Made by a program: the position numbers and the translations under genes
Assembly: GCA_947625015.1 (NCBI GenBank)
Contig: CANQMR010000026.1
Span: 1-43,563, forward strand
Length of the DNA: 43,563 nt
Reading direction: 5' to 3'
Source of the DNA: an uncultured Lachnospiraceae bacterium
GTDB lineage: Bacteria; Bacillota; Clostridia; Lachnospirales; Lachnospiraceae
The notes under the pieces: model-generated
Databases searched by the model: none
The model's input: only the letters and a program-made list of their open reading frames with translations
What the model was told of the DNA's origin: nothing
Shown here: positions 8,989-41,479 of the stretch, piece by piece
Numbering within the stretch: position 1 is the first letter of the stretch
Layout of the letters: every line of letters starts with the position of its first letter

Positions 8989-10281
8989 CTAAAAATTCCA
9001 GAGACCATACAGCGGAATATTCAGTATCCCTTTGGCAAAGCCCAATTCACCTAAGGATATGCGGATTGCCATATGATTTCTGTACTTGCTGTTAAAGACC
9101 TTCATGCTCTGGGCCTTTCTGCGCACCTTGGACTGTACATCTACCGGCACCACCTCGCCGTCATCCTCAAAGACAAAATCCACTCTGGCCGTTGCCCCGG
9201 ATATCCAGAAATACAGCTTATCTACGGTCTTGTTCATGGTAAGCTCGGAAAGGACAAACTGCTCTAAGAGGGCGCCATTGATATCCTCTAACTCTCCCTG
9301 CTCCAAATTCAGCCGGTTATGGGAAACTCCGCACATTACCCGCAGAAGGCCATGGTCTAAATGATAAAGCTCAAAGGATTTCTCATCTACCTGCATGGCA
9401 AGAGGGGCAACCCCTTCCCGAATCCGGTTTACCTTCCGCAAAAGCCCGGTATCCACCAGCCAGTCCACAGAGCCTTCATATTCCCTGGCTCTGGCCTTTT
9501 CATCTACATACTGATACATAAACTTGCGGTTCTCTTTTTCCATCTGGGCGGGAATACTGTTCCATATCCGCTCCACCTTGGCCGCGTAGGTCTTAGGCAC
9601 ATACCGTTCAATATGCTCCCGGCACCGGGCCAGCACCGCCTGTAAAATGGAATCTACCCGGTCTAAATCATGGTTCTTCACATAATCGAGAACCACAATG
9701 GGCATTCCGCCGGTAATATAGAAAACCTTCAGATATTCCGTAATCTGCTCAATAATCTCCGGTGCCACAGGCTCTAGCTTCTGATTCTCAATATGCCTGC
9801 ACAAATCCTGCGCCTTATTCGCCGTCAGAAATTCCTCAAAGGTCATGGGATAAAGCTGAAGGCATTGAAATTCACCTTCAAACTCCGCCTCATGGGCGAT
9901 CGTCCCCACCGTAGAGACAATCATGCAGACAGGAAGATCCGGCCGCTGACGTTTTAGGCTCATCACCGCCTCCACCGCTTTGGGATATAAATGAATCTCA
10001 TCAAATACGAACAGGGTATTTCCCTCCTCGCAGGTCTGTTCGCAGTACAGGGATATGGCGGCAATCAGCTTATCCGCTTTGATTCTGGCTCCCTGCTTAA
10101 ACAGTGCGGCAGCCTCCTTGTCCTTCTCAAAATCCACATACATCAGCTTCTTAAAAAAGCCCTGCCCAAAATCAATCATGGTCCAGGTCTTTCCCACGCC
10201 CTTTGCCCCTTTTAACAGCAGAACCTTATCCATTCCGCCCTCATACCACTCCATTAAATCATTCATTATAATCCGATACAT
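8989..10281 (-). CDS. AAA ATPase with C-terminal DUF4143 domain
   Basis: The 430-aa cytoplasmic P-loop ATPase has Walker A GAKGVGKT (residues 25-32) and Walker B TLFVFDEIHLYPKAVEA near 93-109. A central helical part and a C-terminal DUF4143 region carry LYFWISGATARVDFVFED and VPVDVQSKVRRKAQSMKVF. That last stretch resembles the nuclease-like D-x-K pattern of DUF4143/PD-(D/E)XK proteins. The longest frame starts with GTG at 10299, but an AGGAGG ribosome site lies inside it, 6 nt before the ATG at 10281. Such ATPases are widespread and poorly understood. The gene has its own promoter. Confidence 0.88.
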   Translation of the reverse strand: MYRIIMNDLMEWYEGGMDKVLLLKGAKGVGKTWTMIDFGQGFFKKLMYVDFEKDKEAAALFKQGARIKADKLIAAISLYCEQTCEEGNTLFVFDEIHLYPKAVEAVMSLKRQRPDLPVCMIVSTVGTIAHEAEFEGEFQCLQLYPMTFEEFLTANKAQDLCRHIENQKLEPVAPEIIEQITEYLKVFYITGGMPIVVLDYVKNHDLDRVDSILQAVLARCREHIERYVPKTYAAKVERIWNSIPAQMEKENRKFMYQYVDEKARAREYEGSVDWLVDTGLLRKVNRIREGVAPLAMQVDEKSFELYHLDHGLLRVMCGVSHNRLNLEQGELEDINGALLEQFVLSELTMNKTVDKLYFWISGATARVDFVFEDDGEVVPVDVQSKVRRKAQSMKVFNSKYRNHMAIRISLGELGFAKGILNIPLYGLWNF

Positions 10282-10396
10282 CTCTTTCCTCCTGCTCACC
10301 GCATATCATGAATTTCACCCATAGGCTTTCCGCCCCTTTATCTGCAAGTCCGCCTCGTCTGCCTACAATTATGTCACAAAATTCAAACCTAACTTA

Positions 10397-10425
10397 ACTA
10401 TATCATTTTACGGCAAAATTGTAAA
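10397..10425 (-). promoter_or_regulatory. promoter of the AAA/DUF4143 gene
   Basis: On the minus strand TTTACA (10420-10425), a 17-bp spacer and TATAGT (10397-10402). It is located between the stop of the MocR gene and the start of the ATPase gene. Confidence 0.6.
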
Positions 10426-10441
10426 TAGCCGCTTTCACCGG

Positions 10442-11899
10442 TCACATTCTATCCAAAAAAAGACCTTCCCACGCTTTTTGCAGCGCCAAAACCCCCTCTT
10501 TAATCTCTGCCTCCTTTAATCTGGCGTAGCCTAACAGGACTGCGGGCTGCCTTAACTCCTCCCTGATATAAAAATCCGAAAGGGCGTAGATGTGGATTCC
10601 CTCTTTTGCCGCGGCCTCCACCATCCGTTTTTCCTGCTCCGCCGCATCCTCCGTTTTCCCGCCAACGGCCAGCAGAAAATGCAGTCCCGCGCTGCTGCCC
10701 GCTATCTCCACCGGAAGTCTGGATTCCCTCAATTCCTGCAAAAGCATATCATGCTTCGTCTTATAGATTTTGCGCATCCGGTTTAAATGCCGCTCAAAAT
10801 CCCCCTGCAAGAGAAACCGGCTGATTAACCGCTGGTCAATCCTCGACACAGTGGAAAAGTAAAAATCTGCCACCTGATGATACCGGTTTAGCAGCTTTTC
10901 CGGCAGAACCATATAACTAATCCGGATTCCCGGCGCAATGGCTTTGGAAAATGTGCCAATATAGATAACCTTTCCAAAAGGATCCTGGCTGTGCAATGCC
11001 GGAATCGGTTTTCCCGCATAACGAAATTCACTGTCATAATCATCCTCTATAATATACCGCCCTTCCTGTCCGCCCGCCCAGGCTAACAGCTTCTGCCTGC
11101 GGCTGGCAGACAGGACCATGCCCATGGGGAAATGGTGGGCCGGCGTTACATAGGCTAATTCGGCGCCGGTTGCTTCTAACAATTCTGTCCTCATTCCCTG
11201 TTCGTCTACGGACACAGGCGAAATCTGATACCCTAAGCTCTCAAAAAAGGTATACGCCTGCTTGTAAGTGGGATTTTCCATGGCAATATGCTTTTTGCTC
11301 TCAAAAATGCGGCTTAACAACAGCAGCATATAGTCGCTTCCCGCCCCGATGATAATCTGCTCCGGCTTGCAGCGGACGCCCCTGGACTGATAAAGATAAC
11401 TCTGTACGGCCTGCCGCAGTTCCAAATCTCCCTGATGGTCGCCGGACAGGAACAAATCCTTGTTGTCATCGATCAGACATTCCCGCATCAGTTTTCTCCA
11501 GGTCCCATACGGAAAATAATCCATATCCACCCCGTTTAAGGAAAAATCCACCTTATAGGGAATTTTACTCTCAACGGCGCCTTCCCTTCCGTATCCGGTC
11601 TGTTCCCCTTCTGCGGAACCGCCGTTATATAAATTTTCCTTCCGGGCATAGAGGTAATCTAACTTACAGACATAATATCCCTTCTGGGGAACCGGTTCTA
11701 TATACCCTTCTGCCACCAACTGCCCGTATGCCATATCAATGGTATTGCGGCTGACCGATAAATGGGAGGCCAATCCCCGGCCGGAGGGCAGTTTCATGCC
11801 GCAGGGCAGGCTGCCGCTTATGATATCATCCCGGATATATCTGTAAATCTGTTCATAAATAGGCATTTTGCTCTTTGTCTCAATAGGAATGGTAAGCAT
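10442..11899 (-). CDS. MocR/PdxR-type GntR regulator with PLP-dependent aminotransferase domain
   Basis: The 485-aa protein joins an N-terminal GntR winged helix (residues about 8-80, including IYEQIYRYIRDDIISGSL, KLPSGRGLASHLSVSRNTI and PQKGYYVCKL) to a fold-type I aminotransferase-like domain (about 120-480). PLP-binding signatures are visible: IIEDDYDSEFRY and IGTFSKAIAPGIRISYMVLP, where the Lys of FSK is the expected Schiff-base residue. In the family this domain senses PLP or an amino-acid adduct. No pdxS/pdxT or obvious target gene lies next to it in this window, so its regulon is unknown. AAGGAGA lies about 9 nt before the ATG. Confidence 0.93.
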   Translation of the reverse strand: MLTIPIETKSKMPIYEQIYRYIRDDIISGSLPCGMKLPSGRGLASHLSVSRNTIDMAYGQLVAEGYIEPVPQKGYYVCKLDYLYARKENLYNGGSAEGEQTGYGREGAVESKIPYKVDFSLNGVDMDYFPYGTWRKLMRECLIDDNKDLFLSGDHQGDLELRQAVQSYLYQSRGVRCKPEQIIIGAGSDYMLLLLSRIFESKKHIAMENPTYKQAYTFFESLGYQISPVSVDEQGMRTELLEATGAELAYVTPAHHFPMGMVLSASRRQKLLAWAGGQEGRYIIEDDYDSEFRYAGKPIPALHSQDPFGKVIYIGTFSKAIAPGIRISYMVLPEKLLNRYHQVADFYFSTVSRIDQRLISRFLLQGDFERHLNRMRKIYKTKHDMLLQELRESRLPVEIAGSSAGLHFLLAVGGKTEDAAEQEKRMVEAAAKEGIHIYALSDFYIREELRQPAVLLGYARLKEAEIKEGVLALQKAWEGLFLDRM

Positions 11900-25323: not shown

Positions 25324-27540
25324 TTACTGTTTTTCTTTTATATAAGTATTAACTCTATTTTGCGTATACTCTATCGTTTCATCCAAACTATTCCTTCCAC
25401 TGAAATAATTTTGTGCTTCCTCGAGCAGAATCTCTGTAATTTCATCATAATAAGCTCCCAGTTTGTTTGTCCGCTTCACCAATTCGACATAGGCATCCGC
25501 CTGTTGCTGCGTTAACGGTCCAAATTCCATGATTTGCTCTCCTATTTGACAATGTAAATCTCTCGGTTCAACCTCAATCCCCAAATCATTTACATAACTC
25601 TCTTCGGTCATAGCTGCTTTCAACGACCAGTCAAAACAGTCTTGTCTGGTTGGCATCACATAATTCGTCGACATTGTTCCCTGATACTCCTTCGTCATAA
25701 AGGTTTTGATTACCTCCCATGCTGCCTCCTTATGCTCAGATTTTATATAGATTCCAAGCCGTATTGGCAGCATAAAATAGCTTCCTTCTTTTTTCGCGTT
25801 GGGATATCCGATATAGTTACATTCTCCCTCATACAGATAATCATATATTTGGATTTCATTTAATCCAACCTCTCCTGTGTTAAATAGTACTTTTCCATCC
25901 CGGATATCCTTTTCCTCCAGATTCGACTCAGCCTCATTCGCATAGTCGGAGCTTCCATGTTCTTTTGCAAACTGAAGTATCTTTCTGTAATTTTCCTGGT
26001 CAAAATTACACGTTCCCTTCGTCCAGTCTATATAATCCGTTACACTACAATCTATCAAACAACCATAAATTTCAATTGGATTATTTGAAACAAATGGTCT
26101 TACATCCTCCGGTTTTTCTTCCACAACGGTTTCAAACTCCTGAAACGTCCAACCGGCAGCATCTCCTACTTCTGAACTTCTTCCCACTAACGTAGCTATA
26201 CTAAATTGCGGTGCTACATAGTATAATTTTCCATCTACTTTCATCGCTTCCAAAACAGAAGGTATTAATTCCTCCATTGCTACCTCAGTATCTTTCTCAA
26301 AGTACGGTGTCAAATCCTCTACTAATCCTTTGGATATGTATGCATCCGAATTTGTCATTGTCAAATCGATAATGTCCGGAACATTTCCGGCAGCCACATC
26401 CAGATTAAATTTTGTACCCGGACTTTCCTCACTCGAATAATCCCTTACTACAATTCGATACTTCTCATTCTCTTTATTAAATGCCATAATGGCATCCCGC
26501 ATATCGTCTTCAAGCCAAAAGGTGCCAAAGCTGATTTCGGTTCTGTCCTCCGGTCCTACATTCGATTTTTTGTACAAAATAAATTCACCCTGTTTTTCCC
26601 TATCCTCTTTTTCCGGTATTGTAAGAAAGCTTCCATCCTCTAAAGAAAGCATTTCCGTTGTAGACATAGGATTAACACCGGAACTGATAAAATCCATGAT
26701 GCCGGTGCAAACTCCCTTTTCTATATCACATCCATAAATTGCTGTCATGTCAGAATAACAAAAATCATACTCCCCAAATCCTGCCATCGTCTTGATTAAA
26801 AGTCCGGATATTTGGATACCGTCTACTGATTGTATTTCTCTTTCTCCCACATTCACCTTTGCAAATTCAGTATACTCACCCTTATAACCATGATACAATA
26901 ATCCCTCATCCTGCGAAACACCAAAATCAATTCGAATATTTTCAATTTCCGGTACTTTCTTTTTTTCAACATTTTTCAAATCTGCATCTAAAAAATATAG
27001 GCATGCGTTATCACTGTCAGACGTTACGACTTCCCCCGCCGCATCCAACCTCACCTCATATACACTGCTGTTTTTCCCTAAAAAGCTGCTACATTCCAAA
27101 TGTGCAGTCTCTTTTCCGGTCCAGTCTGTTTTGACAATATCGGTTAAATGTCTATCTAATCCATTATACGCTTCTTCCTCTTTTAGCTTTTGTATTCCAT
27201 ATACTATTTCTTTATTCGGAGTAAGGTCGAATACTTGAATATATTCGTTATCACTCAAAGGTAACGGCAACTCCTCCAATTCACCACTCTCTATATCATA
27301 AGCATACATTCTCGGTTTATATTCTTCTGATTCCTCTTCCGTAATAAAATACAGACCTCCCTCCTTATATGTATATATGGTAGGATAGCCCTCAACCCCT
27401 TCAATATCAAATTGTGAACTCTCATACACCATATCCTCTGAATTGCTTATCTTCTGCAACACATTGCTATTTCCCTTTCCACAGCCGGAAAGCAATACAA
27501 ATGCTGCTATTATAATTAAAATTCGTTTTCGATTCCACAT
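25324..27540 (-). CDS. orphan extracellular solute-binding lipoprotein
   Basis: The 738-aa protein has a lipoprotein signal (MWNRKRILIIIAAFVLLSGC) with the lipobox cysteine at residue 20. Residues about 45-320 form short repeated strand-rich units (YTYKEGGLYFIT, MYAYDIESGELEELPLPL and others) reminiscent of a beta-propeller. About 340-738 is a family 1 solute-binding domain: DAIMAFNKENEKYRIVVRDY, DVAAGNVPDIIDLTMTNSDAY, FMLPIRLGIYIKSEHKEAAW. The same two-part architecture occurs in the lipoprotein gene at 29484, across pyrG. No permease is adjacent. Base composition is clearly more AT-rich than the neighbouring ftsH and pyrG genes, which suggests acquisition. GAGGAGGAGA precedes the ATG. Ligand unknown. 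Confidence 0.85.
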   Translation of the reverse strand: MWNRKRILIIIAAFVLLSGCGKGNSNVLQKISNSEDMVYESSQFDIEGVEGYPTIYTYKEGGLYFITEEESEEYKPRMYAYDIESGELEELPLPLSDNEYIQVFDLTPNKEIVYGIQKLKEEEAYNGLDRHLTDIVKTDWTGKETAHLECSSFLGKNSSVYEVRLDAAGEVVTSDSDNACLYFLDADLKNVEKKKVPEIENIRIDFGVSQDEGLLYHGYKGEYTEFAKVNVGEREIQSVDGIQISGLLIKTMAGFGEYDFCYSDMTAIYGCDIEKGVCTGIMDFISSGVNPMSTTEMLSLEDGSFLTIPEKEDREKQGEFILYKKSNVGPEDRTEISFGTFWLEDDMRDAIMAFNKENEKYRIVVRDYSSEESPGTKFNLDVAAGNVPDIIDLTMTNSDAYISKGLVEDLTPYFEKDTEVAMEELIPSVLEAMKVDGKLYYVAPQFSIATLVGRSSEVGDAAGWTFQEFETVVEEKPEDVRPFVSNNPIEIYGCLIDCSVTDYIDWTKGTCNFDQENYRKILQFAKEHGSSDYANEAESNLEEKDIRDGKVLFNTGEVGLNEIQIYDYLYEGECNYIGYPNAKKEGSYFMLPIRLGIYIKSEHKEAAWEVIKTFMTKEYQGTMSTNYVMPTRQDCFDWSLKAAMTEESYVNDLGIEVEPRDLHCQIGEQIMEFGPLTQQQADAYVELVKRTNKLGAYYDEITEILLEEAQNYFSGRNSLDETIEYTQNRVNTYIKEKQ

Positions 27541-29483: not shown

Positions 29484-31817
29484 TTATTCAGACAGATACA
29501 AATCCATTTTTGAATTGATTCCGTCCATATAATCTTCAATGGAAATCTCATCATTTAAATAAGCGTCCAGTTTTTCAAATATCATTTCCTCTATCATCTC
29601 ATTCATATTCGCCGGATGTTCCAGCGTCATAAAATATTCTTTAAAACGTTCCCGGTATTCGGGGGCAACCTCAAAGTGATAACTTGTATTAACCCCGTCT
29701 ACCACGCCGCCAAGCAGGGTATCTGTCGGAAGGGTTTCACAATAATATGCATAGGCGTCGAGATTCACCGGCAATCCCTGGGGATAATCCATTTCCGAAC
29801 CGGTCTGCTCTGCTACGGTGAACATCTCCTTAATAAAATCTTTCGCCAGATCAGCGGCGTCACTTTTTGCAGACAGTCCGACAACATATTTGGGAACAAA
29901 GGTATTTGCCATGCCCAGACTGCCGCCGTCTAACACATAGTCTTTATTCCGCTCCATAATCGCCGCTAACTCTACGGTTCTTAACGGTCTTGTAATCACG
30001 CTGAATGCAACATTCTGCTTTGTCGCCTCCGGAGCCCACAGCCCTTCCACGCTTCGCATTTCCCACTCGTAGTACGGAAAATGCTCTGTATTTTCCTCAT
30101 TTTGCTGTAGCTCGTCTTCACTGGTCTGCGCCATTAACGCCTGCCAGACCTTTTTATAGCCGGTGAGAAATTCCTCCATGGCTTCCGCACTGTATTGATT
30201 GTCCACAGACAGGATTTTAGCGGAATATACGGGGTATACCGAGGCGTACAGTTCCTCCTTCGTAAATATGCTTAAGGCGTTATCGATGGCCGGTTCATTA
30301 TCCGATACATACTCCGCCAAAGCGTCTAAGCTTGTAATTTTTTGTATATCTTTTTCATATCCCAAAAGGCCTGCCGCATAAAACCGGGAAGGAATTGCAT
30401 AGACAGACTCTCCGGTCTTATATGCTCCGATTATCTTTTGTGCGCAGGAGGGATTGTCGGCGGCTATCTCCGCATAGATGTCGCTGATATCCGCGAGCAT
30501 ACCGTTTTTGCTATAGGTATTCACATTCAGTCCGTCTAACAAAATCACATCCGGTCCGGTTCCGGATAACAGCTCCGTATTCAGTTTATTAACCGCCTCA
30601 TCCACTGTGGTGTTGCTGTCCGCATCTATGCCGACTTCTATATTGACGGTCACATTCGGCCGCACGCTCTGGTATGCCTGAACAACCGAATCCATGTAAT
30701 CCTCAGGCCGAAGCATATAGATTGTAATTTCCCCTTCCAAATCCTCTACGATTTCCCTCTCCACAGAGATACCGTCCGCACTCCCGGAGGACGCCACTGT
30801 CTCCGTCGTCACCGGCTCCTCTCCATAGGCGTAACGGTTAACAGCCGTCCCGCTGTCTAACATGACCAATGTATGAAAGGCCGTATCACTCTCCACATTA
30901 AAATCCACCATCATGGCATCCTGATTCTGAAACTGGGTATGCGCATCCGAAACCACATATTCTAACAGATTACTGCCTAAGGTATACCGGTAAATGCCGT
31001 CTGCAAGCAGCAGATACACCGACTCCCCTTCCCCCGCCTTCATTATGCGGCTGCACATGCCTACCACGCCATTCACCCTTGTCTGTGCGGTTTCCAACTG
31101 GTCCGCTAAATTTTCCGCCAAAGCCGTATAGGTCTGCTGAAGTTTTGCATCTGAAAGGCTATAGGTACAAAGCTCCTCTGTGCCAAGCACTGCCATGGAT
31201 TCCCCCATTTCGCAGAAATCCAGTATATTGGATTGGGAAATCTGCTGCTTAAGTTTTCCGTCTAAGCCAAATTCAAGAATCATGCCTCCGGTATTCAGAT
31301 AGTAGCTCTCCTGGTCGGAAGAAGCCCTGACGCTCTTCACAGACTGCTCTCTTGCCATCTCCGCCTCTTTAACCGTACCGTCCGCCTTTATATATGCCAA
31401 ATGCTGACCGTTTTCCTCTCCTTCCATAACCTTATAGGCCAGAACAACTCCTCCGTCTTCAAAGCGGTCTGCGGTTAAAAGCATCGCATTTTCATCCAGG
31501 TTTAACGCCTGATTTATGGCGTCCGCCGGTTCCTCCTTATAGCTTTTCCCCGAGTCCTCCGTTTCATAAATTGCAAGCTGCGAGTAATTATCCGCCTTTG
31601 TTCCCAATATATACCATGCGCCGGACTGCGCTGTCATAAATCCCAGCGAACCCTTAAAATCGGGAATCTGTTCCCTCTGGATTTCTGCAAATTCCTTGTC
31701 CGGACTGCTTACGCCGCCTTCCCCGGCAAGCCGGTCTCCGGTCTTTTTCCCGCAGCCCCCAAGCAGAACGCACAGGGCAGCTAACACAAATATCATCATC
31801 TTTTTTCCTGTATTCAT
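29484..31817 (-). CDS. extracellular solute-binding lipoprotein of the ABC/HlyD operon
   Basis: This 777-aa lipoprotein has a signal MNTGKKMMIFVLAALCVLLG and lipobox Cys at residue 22. A strand-rich N-terminal part (about 45-330) resembles a propeller (AYIKADGTVKEAEMA, IYRYTLGSNLLEYVVS). A family 1 solute-binding domain follows (about 345-777), with ITIYMLRPEDYMDSVVQAYQ, KLNTELLSGTGPDVILLDGL and a C-terminal helical lobe. It is the last gene of the operon with two CUT1 permeases, 16 nt after the membrane protein gene. The longest frame starts at GTG; AGGTG lies 6 nt before the ATG used. The ligand is unknown: CUT1 systems usually bind oligosaccharides, but the extra N-terminal domain is unusual. 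Confidence 0.87.
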   Translation of the reverse strand: MNTGKKMMIFVLAALCVLLGGCGKKTGDRLAGEGGVSSPDKEFAEIQREQIPDFKGSLGFMTAQSGAWYILGTKADNYSQLAIYETEDSGKSYKEEPADAINQALNLDENAMLLTADRFEDGGVVLAYKVMEGEENGQHLAYIKADGTVKEAEMAREQSVKSVRASSDQESYYLNTGGMILEFGLDGKLKQQISQSNILDFCEMGESMAVLGTEELCTYSLSDAKLQQTYTALAENLADQLETAQTRVNGVVGMCSRIMKAGEGESVYLLLADGIYRYTLGSNLLEYVVSDAHTQFQNQDAMMVDFNVESDTAFHTLVMLDSGTAVNRYAYGEEPVTTETVASSGSADGISVEREIVEDLEGEITIYMLRPEDYMDSVVQAYQSVRPNVTVNIEVGIDADSNTTVDEAVNKLNTELLSGTGPDVILLDGLNVNTYSKNGMLADISDIYAEIAADNPSCAQKIIGAYKTGESVYAIPSRFYAAGLLGYEKDIQKITSLDALAEYVSDNEPAIDNALSIFTKEELYASVYPVYSAKILSVDNQYSAEAMEEFLTGYKKVWQALMAQTSEDELQQNEENTEHFPYYEWEMRSVEGLWAPEATKQNVAFSVITRPLRTVELAAIMERNKDYVLDGGSLGMANTFVPKYVVGLSAKSDAADLAKDFIKEMFTVAEQTGSEMDYPQGLPVNLDAYAYYCETLPTDTLLGGVVDGVNTSYHFEVAPEYRERFKEYFMTLEHPANMNEMIEEMIFEKLDAYLNDEISIEDYMDGINSKMDLYLSE

Positions 31818-31833
31818 ATTCTTCACCTCGTTT

Positions 31834-32694
31834 TTATTCTTCTCTTCCTGGTTTTCGTTTTACCACTTTTATGGACGGTATTCCAGTCCTTTTCCTTTTC
31901 TTCCATATGAGAATCAATCCAATGAGCAGAAATCCGGCCCATAAACCATATCCAAGCTGTTCCCACATGCGCTGAACAAAATAATTCTCTATCACATCCT
32001 TTTTGCGGTACATAATCTCTTTTCTTCTCGTATTGATATCGGCCAGCCAGGTCTTCCAGTGTCCAAAATCCGACCATTTTACAGGCAGCTCTATCCAATG
32101 GAGCAGATTCATATAATCTTTTACATAATATTGCGCCTCTATATTGGAAAATACCCTCTCCAAAGTTTCCATATTCTGATTTCTGTATAATTCCTCATTG
32201 CAGGAGAGCAAAATTCCGGAGACTCCTTTTTCCTCCTGCCCTCCTTCCCGCCATTGTATAACCATGAGCGGCTGTTCCGAGTGAAGGATTCCCCGCACCG
32301 TATACTGCCTGCCCTGCCAAGAAACCGCCTGCCCCGACGGAATCCCTGTTCCAAACAGCGTATACATGGTGTCCGAATCCAGCAGGCATCCGGAAAAATC
32401 CGTTGTGTGCAGCTGCGCTCCGCAGGAAAACAGACAATCCGATTCAAAATTGACTCTGACTACATCCGCCTGCCTCTCCCTGCGGCTTTCATAACCGTTT
32501 AGCTGCTGGCGCTCATTTACCTGATATCCCCCAATCAGGCAGGCAAGCTCCTTCTGTTTTTCTTTTAATTCCTGAAAATCTATGGTGTCCTGCCCGTTCA
32601 GATACGCCACCTGACATTCCGATGCGTTTTTTTCCTGCCGCTCCAGTGCGCCAAAAGATAATACCGCCCTGCCGGCCGCCATGCAGAAAAGCAC
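31834..32694 (-). CDS. unrecognised membrane protein with N- and C-terminal transmembrane segments
   Basis: I do not recognise the family. The C-terminus has a transmembrane helix (GLWAGFLLIGLILIW) followed by a basic tail, and the N-terminus is hydrophobic. The middle (about 30-245) is hydrophilic and probably outside the cell; it has four cysteines and a segment like IPSGQAVSWQGRQYTVRGIL. The start is uncertain. The frame remains open upstream to about 32757, overlapping the HlyD-like gene. That extension adds a basic stretch (KLKKRKSGVYRIAIS) that completes a signal-anchor helix, but offers no ATG, GTG or TTG. The GTG used lacks a Shine-Dalgarno site. Context: between the adaptor and the binding protein in one operon. 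Confidence 0.68.
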   Translation of the reverse strand: MLFCMAAGRAVLSFGALERQEKNASECQVAYLNGQDTIDFQELKEKQKELACLIGGYQVNERQQLNGYESRRERQADVVRVNFESDCLFSCGAQLHTTDFSGCLLDSDTMYTLFGTGIPSGQAVSWQGRQYTVRGILHSEQPLMVIQWREGGQEEKGVSGILLSCNEELYRNQNMETLERVFSNIEAQYYVKDYMNLLHWIELPVKWSDFGHWKTWLADINTRRKEIMYRKKDVIENYFVQRMWEQLGYGLWAGFLLIGLILIWKKRKRTGIPSIKVVKRKPGREE

Positions 32695-32732
32695 AGAAAT
32701 TGCTATGCGATATACACCGGACTTCCTTTTCT

Positions 32733-33956
32733 TTAATTTTCCTTCAAGCGTACGACATCACCTGCCTCTACCTGTTTATCTGAATTGATAATAATATTCA
32801 TCTCCTTTGACAAGCTGCTGCCGGAGACAGCGCAGTCCGTATCGTTATATTCCTGTATGGTAACCTCCACCATTTGGGCGGTAATGCTTTCCCCCAAAAG
32901 CGTATCTTTGCTCCGGGTTACCAGAATATAGTTCGTTCCCATGGCGTTTGTCCGCACTGCGCTCCAAGGCACGCAGTAATCATACTGCCCGGAGGTCCGG
33001 GTAAAGGTTACATTTACACTGGCCCCAATTTTATATTTTTTTGCGGGCACCCGCATCCGCACATTATAGGCAAAGGGGTTTTCCTGATCCTGGGATACGG
33101 ATTTTACCTCAAAATATTCCCCTTCTTCGGCGGCTGCCGTCTGCACCATGCCCTGATCCCCTTTTTGAATAAAGGCGGCGTCCTCCTCGGAAACCTGCGC
33201 CATCAGATTATACTTACCGCTTAGGGGACTGCCTAAAAAGGCGGCGTCCTCGCCGGAGCTTGAACCTAAGGAAACATTCACATCTGTTATCTGCATATCC
33301 TGTTTGGCCAAAACATTCCCCTCTAAGCTAATCAGACTGGTATACTGATACTTTTCCCTTGAAACCTCGGAAATCTGCCGGTCAATTTCCGCCACAGAAA
33401 GCTCTGCCTTTATGGCCTCCTTTCGCTGCTTATACAGGCTGTTTAACTCGAGGCGTTTCTCCTCGTCCTTTTCCTTAATCTGTTCTAAATCAAAGGTGAG
33501 CAGGACGTCGCCCTCCTTGACCGAACTGCCTTCCTCCACCGATATGGAATCAATCCGGAAACCGGAGGGGACATACACAGGTATCTTTTTTGTCTCCTTT
33601 ACCGTTCCCGAGGTTTTAATCGTATGGGTTATCGTGCCACCCCCCGCCTTTTTACATTCCACAACCGGTATCAGGGAGGCGTTGGCAAACCGGGAAAGAT
33701 AGGTGCATACAATAATCACGATAGCAAAACCAACCAGCAGTCTGCCCGCTCCGGACAGCAGCTTTTTCCGGCGGAGCCTTCTCCTGTGCATGCGCTCCTG
33801 TCTTATATATAGGCGTTCCTGTTCCCTCCTGTCATATAACGCGGGTTCTTTCATTCCCGTTTCTTCCGGCTCTGTTTCGTTCAGTTCCGTTTCCTCCAGT
33901 TCCGTCTCTTCCGTCTCATCTCTTTCATACCTTTCTCTTTTTTCGGTATCCTCCAC
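32733..33956 (-). CDS. HlyD/RND-type periplasmic adaptor-like membrane protein
   Basis: The 407-aa protein resembles membrane-fusion (HlyD/MacA-like) proteins. It has a long cytoplasmic tail, very acidic with repeated Glu-Thr-Glu units (about 13-34), then a basic patch and one transmembrane helix (about 72-89, LLVGFAIVIIVCTYLSRF). Outside, the lipoyl-like half-motifs SGTVKETKKIPVYVPSGF and VEEGSSVKEGDVLLTFD flank a coiled-coil hairpin (about 150-200), followed by a beta-barrel region (YNLMAQVSEEDAAFIQKGDQ) and a C-terminal domain. AAAGGAG lies 9 nt before the GTG chosen; the alternative TTG three codons upstream is adjacent to the site. Finding an exporter-type adaptor inside a CUT1 importer operon is odd. 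Confidence 0.85.
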   Translation of the reverse strand: MEDTEKRERYERDETEETELEETELNETEPEETGMKEPALYDRREQERLYIRQERMHRRRLRRKKLLSGAGRLLVGFAIVIIVCTYLSRFANASLIPVVECKKAGGGTITHTIKTSGTVKETKKIPVYVPSGFRIDSISVEEGSSVKEGDVLLTFDLEQIKEKDEEKRLELNSLYKQRKEAIKAELSVAEIDRQISEVSREKYQYTSLISLEGNVLAKQDMQITDVNVSLGSSSGEDAAFLGSPLSGKYNLMAQVSEEDAAFIQKGDQGMVQTAAAEEGEYFEVKSVSQDQENPFAYNVRMRVPAKKYKIGASVNVTFTRTSGQYDYCVPWSAVRTNAMGTNYILVTRSKDTLLGESITAQMVEVTIQEYNDTDCAVSGSSLSKEMNIIINSDKQVEAGDVVRLKEN

Positions 33957-33976
33957 TATGTTCAACTCCTTTCACA

Positions 33977-34822
33977 TCATTTGTCCTCTAAGCCGGTTCC
34001 CTGAATCGCAATTCCCTGGGCTAAAAATTCCTTTCCAACTATAAAAATCACAACCGCCGGAAGCAGGCTGAACAGAGAAAAGGCAAAGGCATTTCCCGCA
34101 TTTTCCACCGTAAGTTCCGGAATATAGACCGACAGCGTCCACAGCCTTTTTTCCTGCAAAAAGACTACCGGCTGCTCCACCATGTTCCAATACTCCAAAA
34201 AGCCAACCACCATAGCCGCCAAAATTCCCTGAAGGGCGATAGGCACTCCGATATGGCAAAAAATCTGGAACTGCCCTGCGCCGTCTATCTTCGCCGCCTC
34301 TAAAACAGTGGGCGGAATATCTAAAAAGGACTGATATACAATAAATACCGGAAATGTGGAAAATACCAGCGGCAGGATAAGGCTTAGGTGGGTATTGATC
34401 ATGGACAGGGAATTTAAAACCAAATACTGGGATAACATCGTCACCTGAAAGGGCAGCAGCATACAGAAGATATAGACGGAAAATGCAATGCCGCTCCATT
34501 TTCTTCTGCTCTGCGCCATTCCCCACGCGGCGGGTACGGCAAAGATAAACTGTCCCACTAATATTGCAGCCACCACCTTAATGGAGTTCCAAAAAAGCAC
34601 ATAATACTCCGGCGTATCCAGTAAAAGCGCAATCAGATTTTTGAGCGTAGGCCAGGAAGGTATCAGGTGCCAGCCGGCATAGCCCCCTTCCTCCGCCAGA
34701 ACCGGCGCCAAAACAGAGGCAAGCTCGGTATTTCCCATAAGCGTACCCGTCACAACAAACAGCACCGGAATAATACAAATGAACCCCAGAAAATATACCA
34801 ACAGACGACCTATGTATTTCAT
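33977..34822 (-). CDS. carbohydrate ABC transporter permease, MalG-like (CUT1)
   Basis: This is a membrane permease subunit with about six transmembrane helices (first near residues 7-28, LVYFLGFICIIPVLFVV). The EAA loop that contacts the ATPase is VLEAAKIDGAGQFQIFCHIG near 190-209. Length (281 aa) is normal. The start overlaps the stop of the upstream permease gene in an ATGA overlap and has AGGAGGAGG in front; the longer frame by 37 codons is not used. No ATPase gene lies in the operon. In Bacillus, CUT1 importers can share one ATPase (MsmX), and I infer the same here. Confidence 0.93.
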   Translation of the reverse strand: MKYIGRLLVYFLGFICIIPVLFVVTGTLMGNTELASVLAPVLAEEGGYAGWHLIPSWPTLKNLIALLLDTPEYYVLFWNSIKVVAAILVGQFIFAVPAAWGMAQSRRKWSGIAFSVYIFCMLLPFQVTMLSQYLVLNSLSMINTHLSLILPLVFSTFPVFIVYQSFLDIPPTVLEAAKIDGAGQFQIFCHIGVPIALQGILAAMVVGFLEYWNMVEQPVVFLQEKRLWTLSVYIPELTVENAGNAFAFSLFSLLPAVVIFIVGKEFLAQGIAIQGTGLEDK

Positions 34823-35712
34823 TGCGCTTCCTCCTCCCTTTCCTGTATTACCTTTTTCTTTACCGCCTTTTTCGGTTCTGTCCGCTCCGCCCTGCCGATA
34901 ATCAATTTTTTCATTGCGTACAGCATCGTGCACAAAAACAGCGCCGTTACCACAGAGCCGGCCGCCAGCTTGCCAAGCTCTAACTTCTGAAACCAGTTAT
35001 TAAAAACATGCTGTAACAGATAAATGCTGTCGTTGGGATAATTCCCCGCCATCAGATAGGCTTCCCGAAACACCTTAAAGGAGTTGACAAAGGACATTAC
35101 GGTAACGGCGTACAGGCTTTTTCTCAGATTAGGCATAGTAATCTTAAAAAACAAAATGAAAGAACCCGCCCCGTCCACCTTCGCCGCCTCATATATATTC
35201 TGCGGAATGGCCGAAAGCCCCGCAATCCATAAAAGCATACAGTAACCGAGATTTTTCCATACATAGGTGCCTACCAGCACCAAAAAAGCCGCATGGCTTT
35301 CTAAAAAGTCAACGGGCTGGGCAATACCCAGTTTTGACAGAAAGCCGTTTACAATTCCCTGACTGTCGAATAAAAGCCTCCACATGACCGCGATGGAATT
35401 AGACGGCAGCGCTAACGGAACCAGAAATAAAAATTGAATCCACCGGTTTTCCATGCCGTACACAACGACTGCCAGCAGCAGGGAAATCAGAAGAAGTAAA
35501 GGCAGGCAGACCATTTCAAATTTTATGGTGTTCCCCGCCGCCAACCGAAAAGCCTCGTTTCCCATAATCGTTTTATAATTGTCAAAAAATGCAAACTCCG
35601 CGCCCTGCACAAAGGACCTGCGAAATACATCTAACAGCGGAATCAGCAGGAAAACTGCCGTTCCAATCATGCTTGGTAACGCAAACAACAGCATCTTATC
35701 TTTTTTCTTCAT
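34819..35712 (-). CDS. carbohydrate ABC transporter permease, MalF/UgpA-like (CUT1)
   Basis: The first gene of the operon encodes a six-helix permease. Helix one is near residues 7-27 (LLFALPSMIGTAVFLLIPLL); the EAA loop is YEAAKVDGAGSFILFFKITM near 190-210. Conserved LPSNSIAVMWRLLFDSQGI near 112-130 is typical of the MalF/LacF group. AAGGAAGG precedes the ATG used (297 aa). The longest frame starts 16 codons earlier, at an ATG that lies inside a TATAAT -10 box and so would hardly be transcribed. It is co-transcribed with the MalG-like permease (ATGA overlap). Confidence 0.93.
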   Translation of the reverse strand: MKKKDKMLLFALPSMIGTAVFLLIPLLDVFRRSFVQGAEFAFFDNYKTIMGNEAFRLAAGNTIKFEMVCLPLLLLISLLLAVVVYGMENRWIQFLFLVPLALPSNSIAVMWRLLFDSQGIVNGFLSKLGIAQPVDFLESHAAFLVLVGTYVWKNLGYCMLLWIAGLSAIPQNIYEAAKVDGAGSFILFFKITMPNLRKSLYAVTVMSFVNSFKVFREAYLMAGNYPNDSIYLLQHVFNNWFQKLELGKLAAGSVVTALFLCTMLYAMKKLIIGRAERTEPKKAVKKKVIQEREEEAQ

Positions 35713-35758
35713 GCCAGCCTTCCTTTTTCCTATACACTCTTTGCCTTTGCCGCTTTTC

Positions 35759-35764
35759 ATTATA
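35759..35764 (-). promoter_or_regulatory. -10 box of the transporter operon
   Basis: On the minus strand TATAAT lies 46-52 bp before the start codon of the first permease. There is no good -35 hexamer at the right distance (ATTTTT or GATTTT), which fits an activator-dependent promoter. Three ATCTCTAA repeats lie 31-75 bp upstream. Confidence 0.5.
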
Positions 35765-35794
35765 TAAGAAAATGCGCCGGAAAAAATCTAAGCA

Positions 35795-35844
35795 ATCTCT
35801 AAAATCCGCCTGAAATCTCTAATTTATCTCTAAATTTTCCCTTA
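35795..35844. promoter_or_regulatory. tandem ATCTCTAA operator-like repeats between divergent transporter and two-component operons
   Basis: ATCTCTAA occurs exactly at 35795-35802, 35815-35822 and 35826-35833, and a 5 of 8 copy (TTCCCTTA) at 35837-35844. Start-to-start spacings are 20, 11 and 11 bp, so the copies lie on about the same face of the helix. Direct repeats at 10-11 bp are the usual binding pattern of OmpR/PhoB-type regulators. One is encoded 64 bp away. Both flanking promoters have weak -35 boxes. Confidence 0.62.
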
Positions 35845-35870
35845 AATATGTATTTTTAAAGAGAATATGC

Positions 35871-35876
35871 TATACT
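35871..35876 (+). promoter_or_regulatory. -10 box of the two-component operon
   Basis: TATACT lies 32-37 bp upstream of the response regulator start codon. The -35 position (ATGTAT) is poor. The nearest operator-like repeat ends just upstream, which suggests autoregulation. Confidence 0.42.
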
Positions 35877-35907
35877 AATAAGCAGACCAAAACAGGAGGA
35901 ATCGGCA

Positions 35908-36597
35908 ATGCGCATACTGCTGATTGAAGATGACGAAAACTTATGCCAATCGCTGGCTTTTCATTTCCGGCAAAACCAAATGGAACTCCATTTCCGCCAT
36001 AACGCCCATGACGGCTACAGCGAGGCGCTCCATGGAAAATACAGCCTTATCATTTTAGACTGTATGCTTCCGGATATGGACGGGCTTCAGCTTTTAACCG
36101 AGCTTCGGGCAAGCCGGATTTTCATTCCAATCCTGCTGCTGACGGCTCTCGGCTCCTTAGAAGATAAGGTGTCCGGCTTAGAGTCGGGCGCTGACGACTA
36201 TATGGTAAAGCCCTTTGCTTTTCCTGAACTGTTGGCCAGAGTCCACACCCTTATCCGCCGTTCTTCCTTTGCCGCTCCGGCGGGCGTCCGGCGGTTCGGG
36301 GATATCGAATACAGCTATCAGACCCGTACCGTTTCCTGCGGTTCAAAGCGCATTCAGCTTTCCCGAAAAGAGGCGGACCTCTTTGAACTTTTACTGCAAA
36401 GCGGTGGGGAAACCATATTGCGGGACGATATCATCACAAAGGTTTGGGGCAGCTTTACGGAGATAGAAAACGGCAATCTGGACAATTATATCTATTTTCT
36501 CCGCAAACGGCTGACCTCTGTCCAAAGCAGCACCAGAATAAAAACCATACGGGGAATCGGCTTTAGGCTGACTCCGCCCCAAAAGGAGAGCACATGA
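35908..36597 (+). CDS. OmpR/PhoB-family response regulator
   Basis: The 229-aa protein has a receiver domain (1-120) with acidic pocket Asp8-Asp9, phosphoacceptor Asp51 in IILDCMLPDMDG, Thr79 and Lys101. A winged-helix DNA-binding domain follows (about 135-225), containing RKEADLFELLLQSGGETILR and TRIKTIRGIGFRL. AGGAGG lies 8 nt before the ATG. It overlaps the sensor kinase gene by ATGA, so the two are co-translated. It is divergent from the permease/HlyD/binding-protein operon, with tandem repeats in between, and is its probable regulator. Confidence 0.96.
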   Translation: MRILLIEDDENLCQSLAFHFRQNQMELHFRHNAHDGYSEALHGKYSLIILDCMLPDMDGLQLLTELRASRIFIPILLLTALGSLEDKVSGLESGADDYMVKPFAFPELLARVHTLIRRSSFAAPAGVRRFGDIEYSYQTRTVSCGSKRIQLSRKEADLFELLLQSGGETILRDDIITKVWGSFTEIENGNLDNYIYFLRKRLTSVQSSTRIKTIRGIGFRLTPPQKEST

Positions 36598-37865
36598 TTC
36601 ACACCCTTATCAAAAAACTTACGCTTGGTTCCTCTGTTTTTATCTGCGCGATACTTCTGCTCGCCAATATCCTGTATATCCGGATTGCCTATAAGAATCT
36701 TGAACAGCAGACCATATCCAATTTTCAGACAAATATTTTTCAAATCTATCAGGATATAGAGAAAAGTCCCATTCTGAACGCATCTGTCCTGAAACAATAC
36801 ACGCAGAACCACTACGAAATCTACTTAGCAGATTACGAAACCACCCTGTATTATGAATCCGACGCCCCGCTGCCGGACCCCCAGGCTGTCATTGCGGAGT
36901 TAAAAAAGCTGTCCCCCTCCCCTTCGCCGGAGGACAGAAAAAGAACCTCCTATATTGAACATCAGGAATTTTTTTATCAGAGCGGCAAAAAAGATTACTA
37001 TGTCAGTACGGCCCTTATTAAAAACACCGATTATGAAATAAATGCATATATTCTGTATTCCCTTGCGGACCTATACCGCCACACCCGGTATATTATTCTG
37101 CAAAGCTGCATCGTCTGCGTATCCGCCTCGCTCATTCTCTGCGTCTTCGCCTATTTTCTTGTCCGGCAAAGTCTAAAGCCGGTGGCGGATTCCCAGCGCC
37201 GTCAGACGGAGTTTATTGCGGCCGCCTCCCATGAGCTGCGGGCTCCCCTTACCGTCATCATGTCAAATACCTTTGCCATGACAAAAACCACCGGAGACGA
37301 GCAGCGGCATTACTACGAAATTACCGCTAAAGAATGTGAGCGCATGTCCTCCATGATTGAAAACATGCTGACTTTAGCACATTCCGACCGGTTTGCCCTG
37401 CAACTCGATAAATCCTGCTGCCAGCCGGAGGATATTGTAATCGACTGCTATAATTACTTTGAACAGATTATTCTTGCAAAGCATCTGAAATTCCATGTGT
37501 CCCTGCCGGAAAATGCGCTCCCTCCCTGCCTTGTTGACCGCAATAAAATATTGCAGCTTCTTATTATCCTTATAGACAACGCCGTCCACTATACGGAAAA
37601 CGGCAGCATAACACTGAGTCTTTCCCGGAAAAACCAGTATTTAATATTTTGCGTTATCGATACCGGCATCGGTATTCCGGATTATGCCAAAGGCAAGATT
37701 TTTGACCGGTTCTACCGGGTTGACGCTTCCCATTCCGACCGGATGCACCATGGTCTTGGATTAAGCGTCGCAAAAGAAATCGCTCAGGCCCATAACGGCA
37801 AAATTAAAGTCAAAGACACGCCCGGCGGCGGAAGCACCTTCATTGTGGAACTGAAAATCATGTGA
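36594..37865 (+). CDS. membrane sensor histidine kinase
   Basis: The 423-aa kinase has two transmembrane helices (about 11-31 and 166-190) enclosing an extracellular sensor domain of about 130 residues that I do not recognise. No obvious HAMP domain follows helix two: RQSLKPVADSQRRQ leads straight into the HisKA domain. The phosphoacceptor is His213 in FIAAASHELRAPLTV. The ATPase domain has the N box (LIILIDNAVHYTENG), D box (CVIDTGIGIPDYAKG), F box (IFDRFYRVD) and G box (HGLGLSVAKEIAQAHNG). Start codon overlaps the response regulator stop. The signal may be the ligand of the divergently encoded binding protein, or a cell-envelope stress; this is inference. Confidence 0.95.
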   Translation: MIHTLIKKLTLGSSVFICAILLLANILYIRIAYKNLEQQTISNFQTNIFQIYQDIEKSPILNASVLKQYTQNHYEIYLADYETTLYYESDAPLPDPQAVIAELKKLSPSPSPEDRKRTSYIEHQEFFYQSGKKDYYVSTALIKNTDYEINAYILYSLADLYRHTRYIILQSCIVCVSASLILCVFAYFLVRQSLKPVADSQRRQTEFIAAASHELRAPLTVIMSNTFAMTKTTGDEQRHYYEITAKECERMSSMIENMLTLAHSDRFALQLDKSCCQPEDIVIDCYNYFEQIILAKHLKFHVSLPENALPPCLVDRNKILQLLIILIDNAVHYTENGSITLSLSRKNQYLIFCVIDTGIGIPDYAKGKIFDRFYRVDASHSDRMHHGLGLSVAKEIAQAHNGKIKVKDTPGGGSTFIVELKIM

Positions 37866-38131: not shown

Positions 38132-38142
38132 CCATCTATAGT
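38115..38142 (+). promoter_or_regulatory. PTS-bgl promoter overlapped by a cre-like site
   Basis: TTGAAA (38115-38120), a 16-bp spacer and TATAGT (38137-38142). The stretch TTGAAAGCGTTTC (38115-38127) matches 12 of 13 positions of the CcpA cre consensus WTGAAARCGYTTW and overlaps the -35 box, so CcpA binding should repress. Both signals lie largely in the right arm of the palindromic element. Confidence 0.6.
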
Positions 38143-38168
38143 TGAATTATTGTAAAGGAGATTGCGTT

Positions 38169-41479
<3,311 letters not shown>

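Follow-up and report, generated by a model that had tools for sequence, protein, structure and literature searches.

A CUT1-type permease operon with its own MacA-type adaptor and a predicted motorless MacB-like core in Lachnospiraceae

Importers of the CUT1 family that share a multitask ATPase of the MsmX/UgpC type combine two BPD_transp_1 permeases with EAA loops and a lipoprotein of the maltose-binding-protein fold, and their operons mostly hold no ATPase gene. Shared MsmX motors have been described (PMC7658222, in the part of that paper available). The MacAB-TolC, YknWXYZ and Spr0693-0695 systems are built on another plan. They use a MacA/RND-type adaptor, a MacB-type periplasmic core domain, an FtsX-type domain of four transmembrane (TM) segments with an ATPase-coupling motif, and their own MacB/LolD-type ATPase, fused or adjacent. 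The pneumococcal adaptor Spr0693 forms a hexameric nanotube, with a modelled reach, transporter included, of about 154 Å above the membrane (PMC5768738, available part). Exporters are the systems with which such adaptors are described, and a review finds it hard to explain why Gram-positive organisms have them and why their hairpins there are so large (PMC4446572). Here we describe an operon of an uncultured Lachnospiraceae bacterium with features of both plans. It lies in a stretch of 43,563 nucleotides, the window, which makes up contig C26 of a draft genome of 2.8 Mb with a completeness of 98.2%. We class the encoded system as a variant of the CUT1-type ABC transporters; it is neither MacAB nor a plain CUT1 importer.

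The operon is a tightly packed minus-strand unit of five genes, assigned from open reading frames (ORFs) and domain scans:

34819..35760, minus strand: PERM_F, CUT1-type permease (MalF/UgpA side); ORF; BPD_transp_1 at 4.8e-10; UgpA at 2e-23, under the equivalog cut-off; EAA loop EAAKVDGAG
33977..34822, minus strand: PERM_G, CUT1-type permease (MalG/UgpE side); BPD_transp_1 at 3.6e-9; UgpE at 9.8e-19, under the cut-off; EAA loop EAAKIDGAG
32733..33965, minus strand: ADAPT, MacA/RND-type adaptor with an N-terminal TM anchor and a short hairpin region; profile and domain matches
31834..32694, minus strand: PCD, predicted membrane-anchored MacB/YknZ-type core domain in a two-anchor form, no ATPase domain; domain, profile and structure matches
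29484..31826, minus strand: solute-binding protein (SBP), a lipoprotein with a beta-propeller and an oligosaccharide-binding-protein fold; ORF, domain and fold matches

A sequence-only reading of the window had proposed one minus-strand operon with an ATGA overlap, short gaps, these domain types and no ATPase, and the ORFs and domain scans bear this out. No ATPase gene is present among the window ORFs of the five operon genes or of the adjoining two-component pair. The ATG of PERM_G sits in the ATGA overlap with PERM_F; the program-listed ORF runs out to a GTG at 34933. For ADAPT, a TTG at 33965 adjoins a likely ribosome-binding site, and a GTG at 33956 is a possible alternative. The start of PCD (32694-32706, minus strand) is ambiguous: a 95% identical relative uses an ATG four codons upstream, where the window has ATA, and the first of the usual start codons is the GTG at 32694.

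The importer half of the operon follows the CUT1 plan. Both permeases are of the MalF/MalG or UgpA/UgpE kind and match BPD_transp_1 above the Pfam cut-off, with best subfamily matches to UgpA/GlcT and UgpE/GlcU that all fall beneath the equivalog cut-offs. EAA coupling loops, with which permeases bind an importer ATPase, are retained in both by a strict motif (92 of 101 PERM_F and 91 of 100 PERM_G, de-duplicated). The third CUT1 component is supplied by SBP, whose C-terminal half (about residues 362-780) has the maltose-binding-protein type of oligosaccharide-binding fold. It follows an N-terminal beta-propeller (about 44-335) and, by eye, a lipobox-like LGGC. The cargo is likely to be an oligosaccharide-type ligand. 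What sets the operon apart from described CUT1 importers is the propeller fused to the binding protein, the dedicated MacA-type adaptor, the MacB-core protein and, as shown below, a separate permease clade. SBP has a family relative in the window, another propeller-type binding lipoprotein (115 bits, profile positions 9-764) at 25324-27540 on the minus strand; it is solitary, 2 kb from the operon past pyrG, with no adjoining permease.

The other half resembles an efflux assembly. A profile built from 26 adaptors and searched against the PDB matched MacA, ZneB, MexJ and other RND adaptors (6vej, 4dk1, 5nik and 3fpp among them) with E values of 7.5e-14 to 1e-10, and EmrA at about 2e-6. ADAPT is also comparable to the MesE/ComB/HlyD-type adaptors of Gram-positive bacteriocin exporters, which are membrane-anchored, have a large variable hairpin and occur in hosts without a TolC-type partner (PMC4446572, available sections). 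It differs from them in its partner, an importer-type permease pair instead of a bacteriocin exporter. The hairpin site was measured as residues between the lipoyl halves in the 26-row alignment, since a regular expression was unusable for 46 of 106 adaptors. Its length is 154-464 residues in the 23 rows that belong to other genera, versus 59-60 in the window lineage. No permease-adaptor fusion was seen among the loci; where PERM_G ORFs are long, as in L126 (508 aa), they run into PERM_F, and their starts appear to have been placed too far upstream.

PCD had been called an unrecognised membrane protein in the sequence-only reading, and fold, profile and motif comparison correct this: it is, on predicted structure and sequence, a motorless MacB/YknZ-type core. 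The single-chain structure prediction of a PCD relative (pLDDT 90) has MacB and YknZ as its best PDB matches, with BceB also among the Foldseek matches. Of 27 members, 24 matched MacB_PCD with E values no higher than 1; the window PCD did so at 0.058, which does not reach the cut-off. A P-x-KWSDF box precedes the last TM segment. The MacB ATPase-coupling motif is found in none of 83 PCD relatives (de-duplicated), versus all three true MacB-like neighbours, and TM2-TM3 are gone in 7 of 27 members, the window form included. With an adaptor homologous to MacA/RND adaptors and a MacB/YknZ extracellular fold, the operon shares two features with MacAB, YknWXYZ and Spr0693-0695. It lacks the four-TM domain with coupling motif and, in the window, an ATPase of its own, and it links the pair to importer permeases and SBP. 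Because these two defining features are absent, this is not a MacAB system. MacB/LolD-type ATPases do occur about 5 kb off in L094 (scanned) and L105 (by eye), beside a different MacB-like protein. Since PCD appears to be a motorless core of this type, the operon would hold a natural docking partner of the adaptor. Separately, L094, L097 and L105 each carry a MacA-like adaptor and a coupling-motif-bearing MacB-like protein within a few kilobases, which may point to how the hybrid operon arose.

The five genes recur as a jointly inherited set. PCD is present in 25 of 299 family genomes and 3 of 26 genus genomes, own genome included in both. At the 26 loci selected through it (24 family, 2 genus), the adaptor always adjoins PCD and both permeases are present in 25, the remaining locus stopping at a contig edge. 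As these loci had been picked via PCD, we recounted from the permease alone in named genomes, using the best 80 of 592 relatives, so the counts describe close relatives. PERM_G is present at 79 of these 80 loci, ADAPT at 77, SBP at 76, PCD at 63, the response regulator (RR) at 56 and the histidine kinase (HK) at 54. Two of the three adaptor-less loci stop at a contig edge and the third holds an adaptor fragment. The order SBP-PERM_F-PERM_G-ADAPT-PCD is found at 45 of 80; the window differs, with SBP last. Six contigs are common to the 26-locus and 80-locus sets. They were removed in de-duplicated counts and are still included in the motif comparison with MacB-like neighbours (3/3) and in the 58/63 repeat count given below. 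A degenerate nucleotide pattern encoding the KWSDF box hit 4 of 391 class genomes and 2 of 398 phylum genomes, own included; the pattern is too strict for absence to mean much.

Generic CUT1 loci of the same family served as controls. An unrelated CUT1 permease of the own genome served as query, 20 loci were taken by hand from the middle ranks of its matches, and seven of these were shortened by contig ends, down to 5.3 kb. Neither adaptor nor PCD was found at any of the 20, the adaptor even at E 10. In a tree of 123 permeases, the 102 of the hybrid set, own-genome copies included, are split from 21 generic ones by a 100/100 branch. Chance association of the parts is ruled out by these controls and the tree. 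The earlier proposal of one machine was to fail if the genes were rarely found together in related genomes; they are found together consistently, and we consider it very probable that they form one functional unit. Members carry contig labels of Lachnospiraceae, Oscillospiraceae, Clostridiaceae, Eubacteriaceae, Anaerovoracaceae, Defluviitaleaceae and Sedimentibacter. Two Clostridia-type operons (L133, L157) sit in metagenome-assembled genomes labelled Muribaculum and Desulfovibrio, probably through bin contamination.

The same counts bear on whether one regulon holds two separate machines. An ordinary CUT1 importer would then be co-transcribed with an adaptor-PCD pair without touching it, and the pair would act with other proteins or the wall. 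The pair behaves as a movable cassette placed ahead of the permeases in 4 of 80 loci, and 12 of 80 loci with room for it, uncut by contig ends, have the adaptor without PCD. Set against this are the presence of the adaptor at 77 of 80 loci of one permease clade versus 0 of 20 outside it, and the finding that no flanking family occurs in more than six loci, apart from a merged ABC-ATPase cluster (27 loci, mostly kilobases off). We regard two separate machines as improbable. A family-wide catabolic cassette was also considered, and was not found among the flanking genes of the wider set.

The motor has to be sought outside the operon in most cases. With a motif filter, which was not exhaustive, ABC-ATPase-like ORFs turned up in 18 of 102 loci; 30 ORFs from 27 loci make up the merged cluster. 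Nine ATPase ORFs were scanned for type. A UgpC/MalK-type ATPase lies in, behind or near the operon in five distinct loci. It touches the operon in Hungatella hathewayi (L102, same contig as L047), C. citroniae (L122), Sedimentibacter (L103) and Negativibacillus (L140; 430.7 bits versus a cut-off of 432), and is 915 bp away in UBA1047 (L117). L119 has a partial UgpC-type ATPase at 386 bp, and the remaining ATPase ORFs of the cluster lie 0.8-7 kb from the operon. Where related operons encode an ATPase it is thus of the UgpC type, as in CUT1 importers, save at two loci. In L092 an exporter-type, lantibiotic-protection-like ATPase ORF (9387-10942) overlaps the PERM_F start, and in L035 a CydC-like exporter lies 114 bp upstream of SBP. 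SBP of L092 is broken into two upstream ORFs, and this copy is possibly remodelled or decaying.

An exporter ATPase as a regular hidden partner is not supported by this pattern, and the outcome that would have spoken against the sequence-only reading, such an ATPase consistently tied to the adaptor, was not seen. Another reading is an exporter or mechanical device, in which the CUT1 pair and its ATPase would be the engine for a MacA-like tube that moves a product outward or works on the envelope. That idea draws on L092 and L035, on the exporters with which such adaptors are described (PMC4446572, available sections), on hairpin regions of up to 464 residues and on the PERM_F alignment (26 rows, mean column identity 47%), where R232/E233 are invariant in a conserved C-terminal block. 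It is hard to square with a solute-binding protein at 76 of 80 loci, UgpC-type ATPases in five, retained EAA loops and the missing MacB coupling motif, and we consider it very improbable.

The suggestion that an ATPase such as MsmX is borrowed held for the genus, where 23 of 26 genomes have an OB_MalK match. It found no counterpart in the own draft, one of the three without a match. The own genome's best ATPase matches adjoin, by eye, PotB-like and CysW-like permeases. An assembly gap would be the simple explanation. Most loci would rely on a shared ATPase.

Upstream of PERM_F, a two-component system diverges from the operon:

35794..35836, no strand: direct repeats (A)ATCTCTAA, located between the divergent units with spacings of 20 and 11 bp; resemble OmpR/PhoB-type operators
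35908..36597, plus strand: response regulator, OmpR/PhoB type; ORF and domain matches
36594..37865, plus strand: sensor histidine kinase, two predicted TM segments with ~145 residues between; ORF and domain matches

The regulator and kinase genes overlap by ATGA. An 8-base repeat (at most one mismatch) at exactly 11-bp spacing is present in 58 of 63 regulator-operon gaps, versus 8.0 in shuffles and 4 to 22 at other spacings from 8 to 25. After de-duplication the figures are 55 of 60 divergent gaps versus 9.5. The tandem operator-like repeats noted in the sequence-only reading are therefore real and conserved. The 11-bp pattern is that of OmpR/PhoB-family tandem sites and favours regulation of the operon by the divergent pair. 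A beta-glucoside phosphotransferase system IIABC gene and a 6-phospho-beta-glucosidase-like gene follow the two-component genes (38142-41479, plus strand); this region is kept in the near-identical relative L053 and was not found in the 18 kb that L054 covers.

A linked OmpR-type system and an FtsX-superfamily core domain, BceB being among the Foldseek matches, are also features of BceAB-BceS sensing transporters. Unlike these, the window operon has no BceA-type ATPase and its kinase has an extracellular stretch of its own. PCD is a 2- or 4-TM protein, whereas BceAB has a long FtsX permease.

Further evidence on cargo comes from the other copies. The own genome has three: the window, C9 (L064; SBP 858, ADAPT 560 and PCD 414 residues) and C43 (L065), which has a short SBP, a 168-residue adaptor and no PCD. 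L239, also of this third type in the genus, shares the short SBP of L065 and has regulator-like and kinase-like ORFs (by eye) before SBP on the same strand. C9-type permeases, at 295 bits or more, occur in 20 of 26 genus genomes, own included. The 19 sister-copy loci (L220-L238) all have both permeases, 18 have the adaptor and 15 have PCD, with the misses at contig ends. Nine of the 19 loci, and also the own C9 copy (TIGR03356, 461 bits versus a cut-off of 478.5), have a glycoside hydrolase family 1 (GH1) beta-glucosidase gene upstream; in seven of the nine it directly adjoins SBP (53-423 bp). Three other loci have too little upstream sequence and seven have a different gene there. The ligand of the sister copy is likely to be beta-glucosidic. 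Identities among sister copies, with the near-identical L234 left out and L225 unmatched, are 38-50% for SBP, 54-72% for the adaptor, 44-60% for PCD and 71-92% for the permeases.

These features could also belong to a BceAB-like sensing or defence module, in which the propeller protein captures an envelope-active compound or wall fragment and the turnover of the machine signals to the two-component system, with nutrient uptake not being the purpose. The linked OmpR-type system with conserved repeats would fit, as would the lantibiotic-protection-like ATPase of L092, the fact that no catabolic genes recur across the wider set, and SBP of the sister copy diverging faster than the permeases. Action on antimicrobial peptides is described for the closest relatives of ADAPT and PCD, namely YknXYZ, on SdpC (PMC4446572), and Spr0693-0695 (PMC5768738). 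The fast change is not special to SBP, because the sister-copy adaptor and PCD also outpace the permeases. The oligosaccharide-binding fold of SBP, the beta-glucosidase beside the sister copy, and the absence near the permease of RR in 24 and HK in 26 of 80 loci (some cut by contig ends) tell against such a module, and we judge it unlikely.

The sequence-only reading had the adaptor and membrane protein as a putative outer scaffold that would bring SBP to the permeases or couple it to the kinase. The evidence best supports an anatomy in which a CUT1-type importer carries a MacA-type adaptor seated on a motorless MacB core. In this hybrid ABC transporter, SBP, PERM_F and PERM_G would be joined by their own adaptor and, usually, the core. 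A shared MsmX-type ATPase would power the permeases inward; that direction is indicated by the presence of SBP and EAA loops, by the predominance of importer-type ATPases and by the sister-copy beta-glucosidase. The adaptor would make a ring or tube over the membrane, as MacA and Spr0693 do, seated on the MacB-like core or, where that is absent, on the permeases. It would hold or feed the propeller-bearing binding protein, and the two-component system would govern the operon through the 11-bp repeats. We infer the role of the adaptor, as scaffold, cage or conduit. That the operon encodes an importer with the adaptor as scaffold or conduit has, on these sequence comparisons, an even chance of being right. 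A more specific version, a tripartite-style Gram-positive importer whose MacA-type ring on the motorless core is an extracytoplasmic conduit or cage passing ligand from the propeller SBP to the MsmX-driven CUT1 pair, is possible and is offered tentatively.

Several observations weigh against an importer of this design. Transport direction, ligand and complex all rest on inference. The 12 unbroken loci without PCD mean that the docking protein is dispensable, and the window adaptor has a very short hairpin (60 residues). The own draft yielded no OB_MalK-type (MsmX) ATPase despite several CUT1 permease pairs, and L092 and L035 pair the operon with exporter-type ATPases. No recurrent glycosidase family or other catabolic genes were found beside the operon across the wider set. 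The beta-glucosidase link is confined to the genus sister copy; around the own C9 copy, two-component genes were not seen. The fast change of SBP in the sister copy also fits sensing or defence and speaks against a plain nutrient importer. Finally, oligosaccharides that can diffuse through a Gram-positive wall would not be expected to require a scaffold.

No description of this gene combination was found in the open-access literature searched. Periplasmic adaptors are treated as exporter parts, and the automated label "efflux subunit" for ADAPT would mislead annotation. The conserved association of such an adaptor with a motorless MacB core and importer-type permeases offers a concrete, testable answer to the Gram-positive adaptor puzzle, and the combination suggests that pump adaptors can serve importers too. 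If true, this would be an adaptor machine working inward, and it could explain long-hairpin adaptors in bacteria without an outer membrane. Because it is widespread in gut-type Clostridia, over several families, and present in three versions in the own genome, the system may be a sizeable unrecognised part of glycan uptake or sensing in these bacteria.

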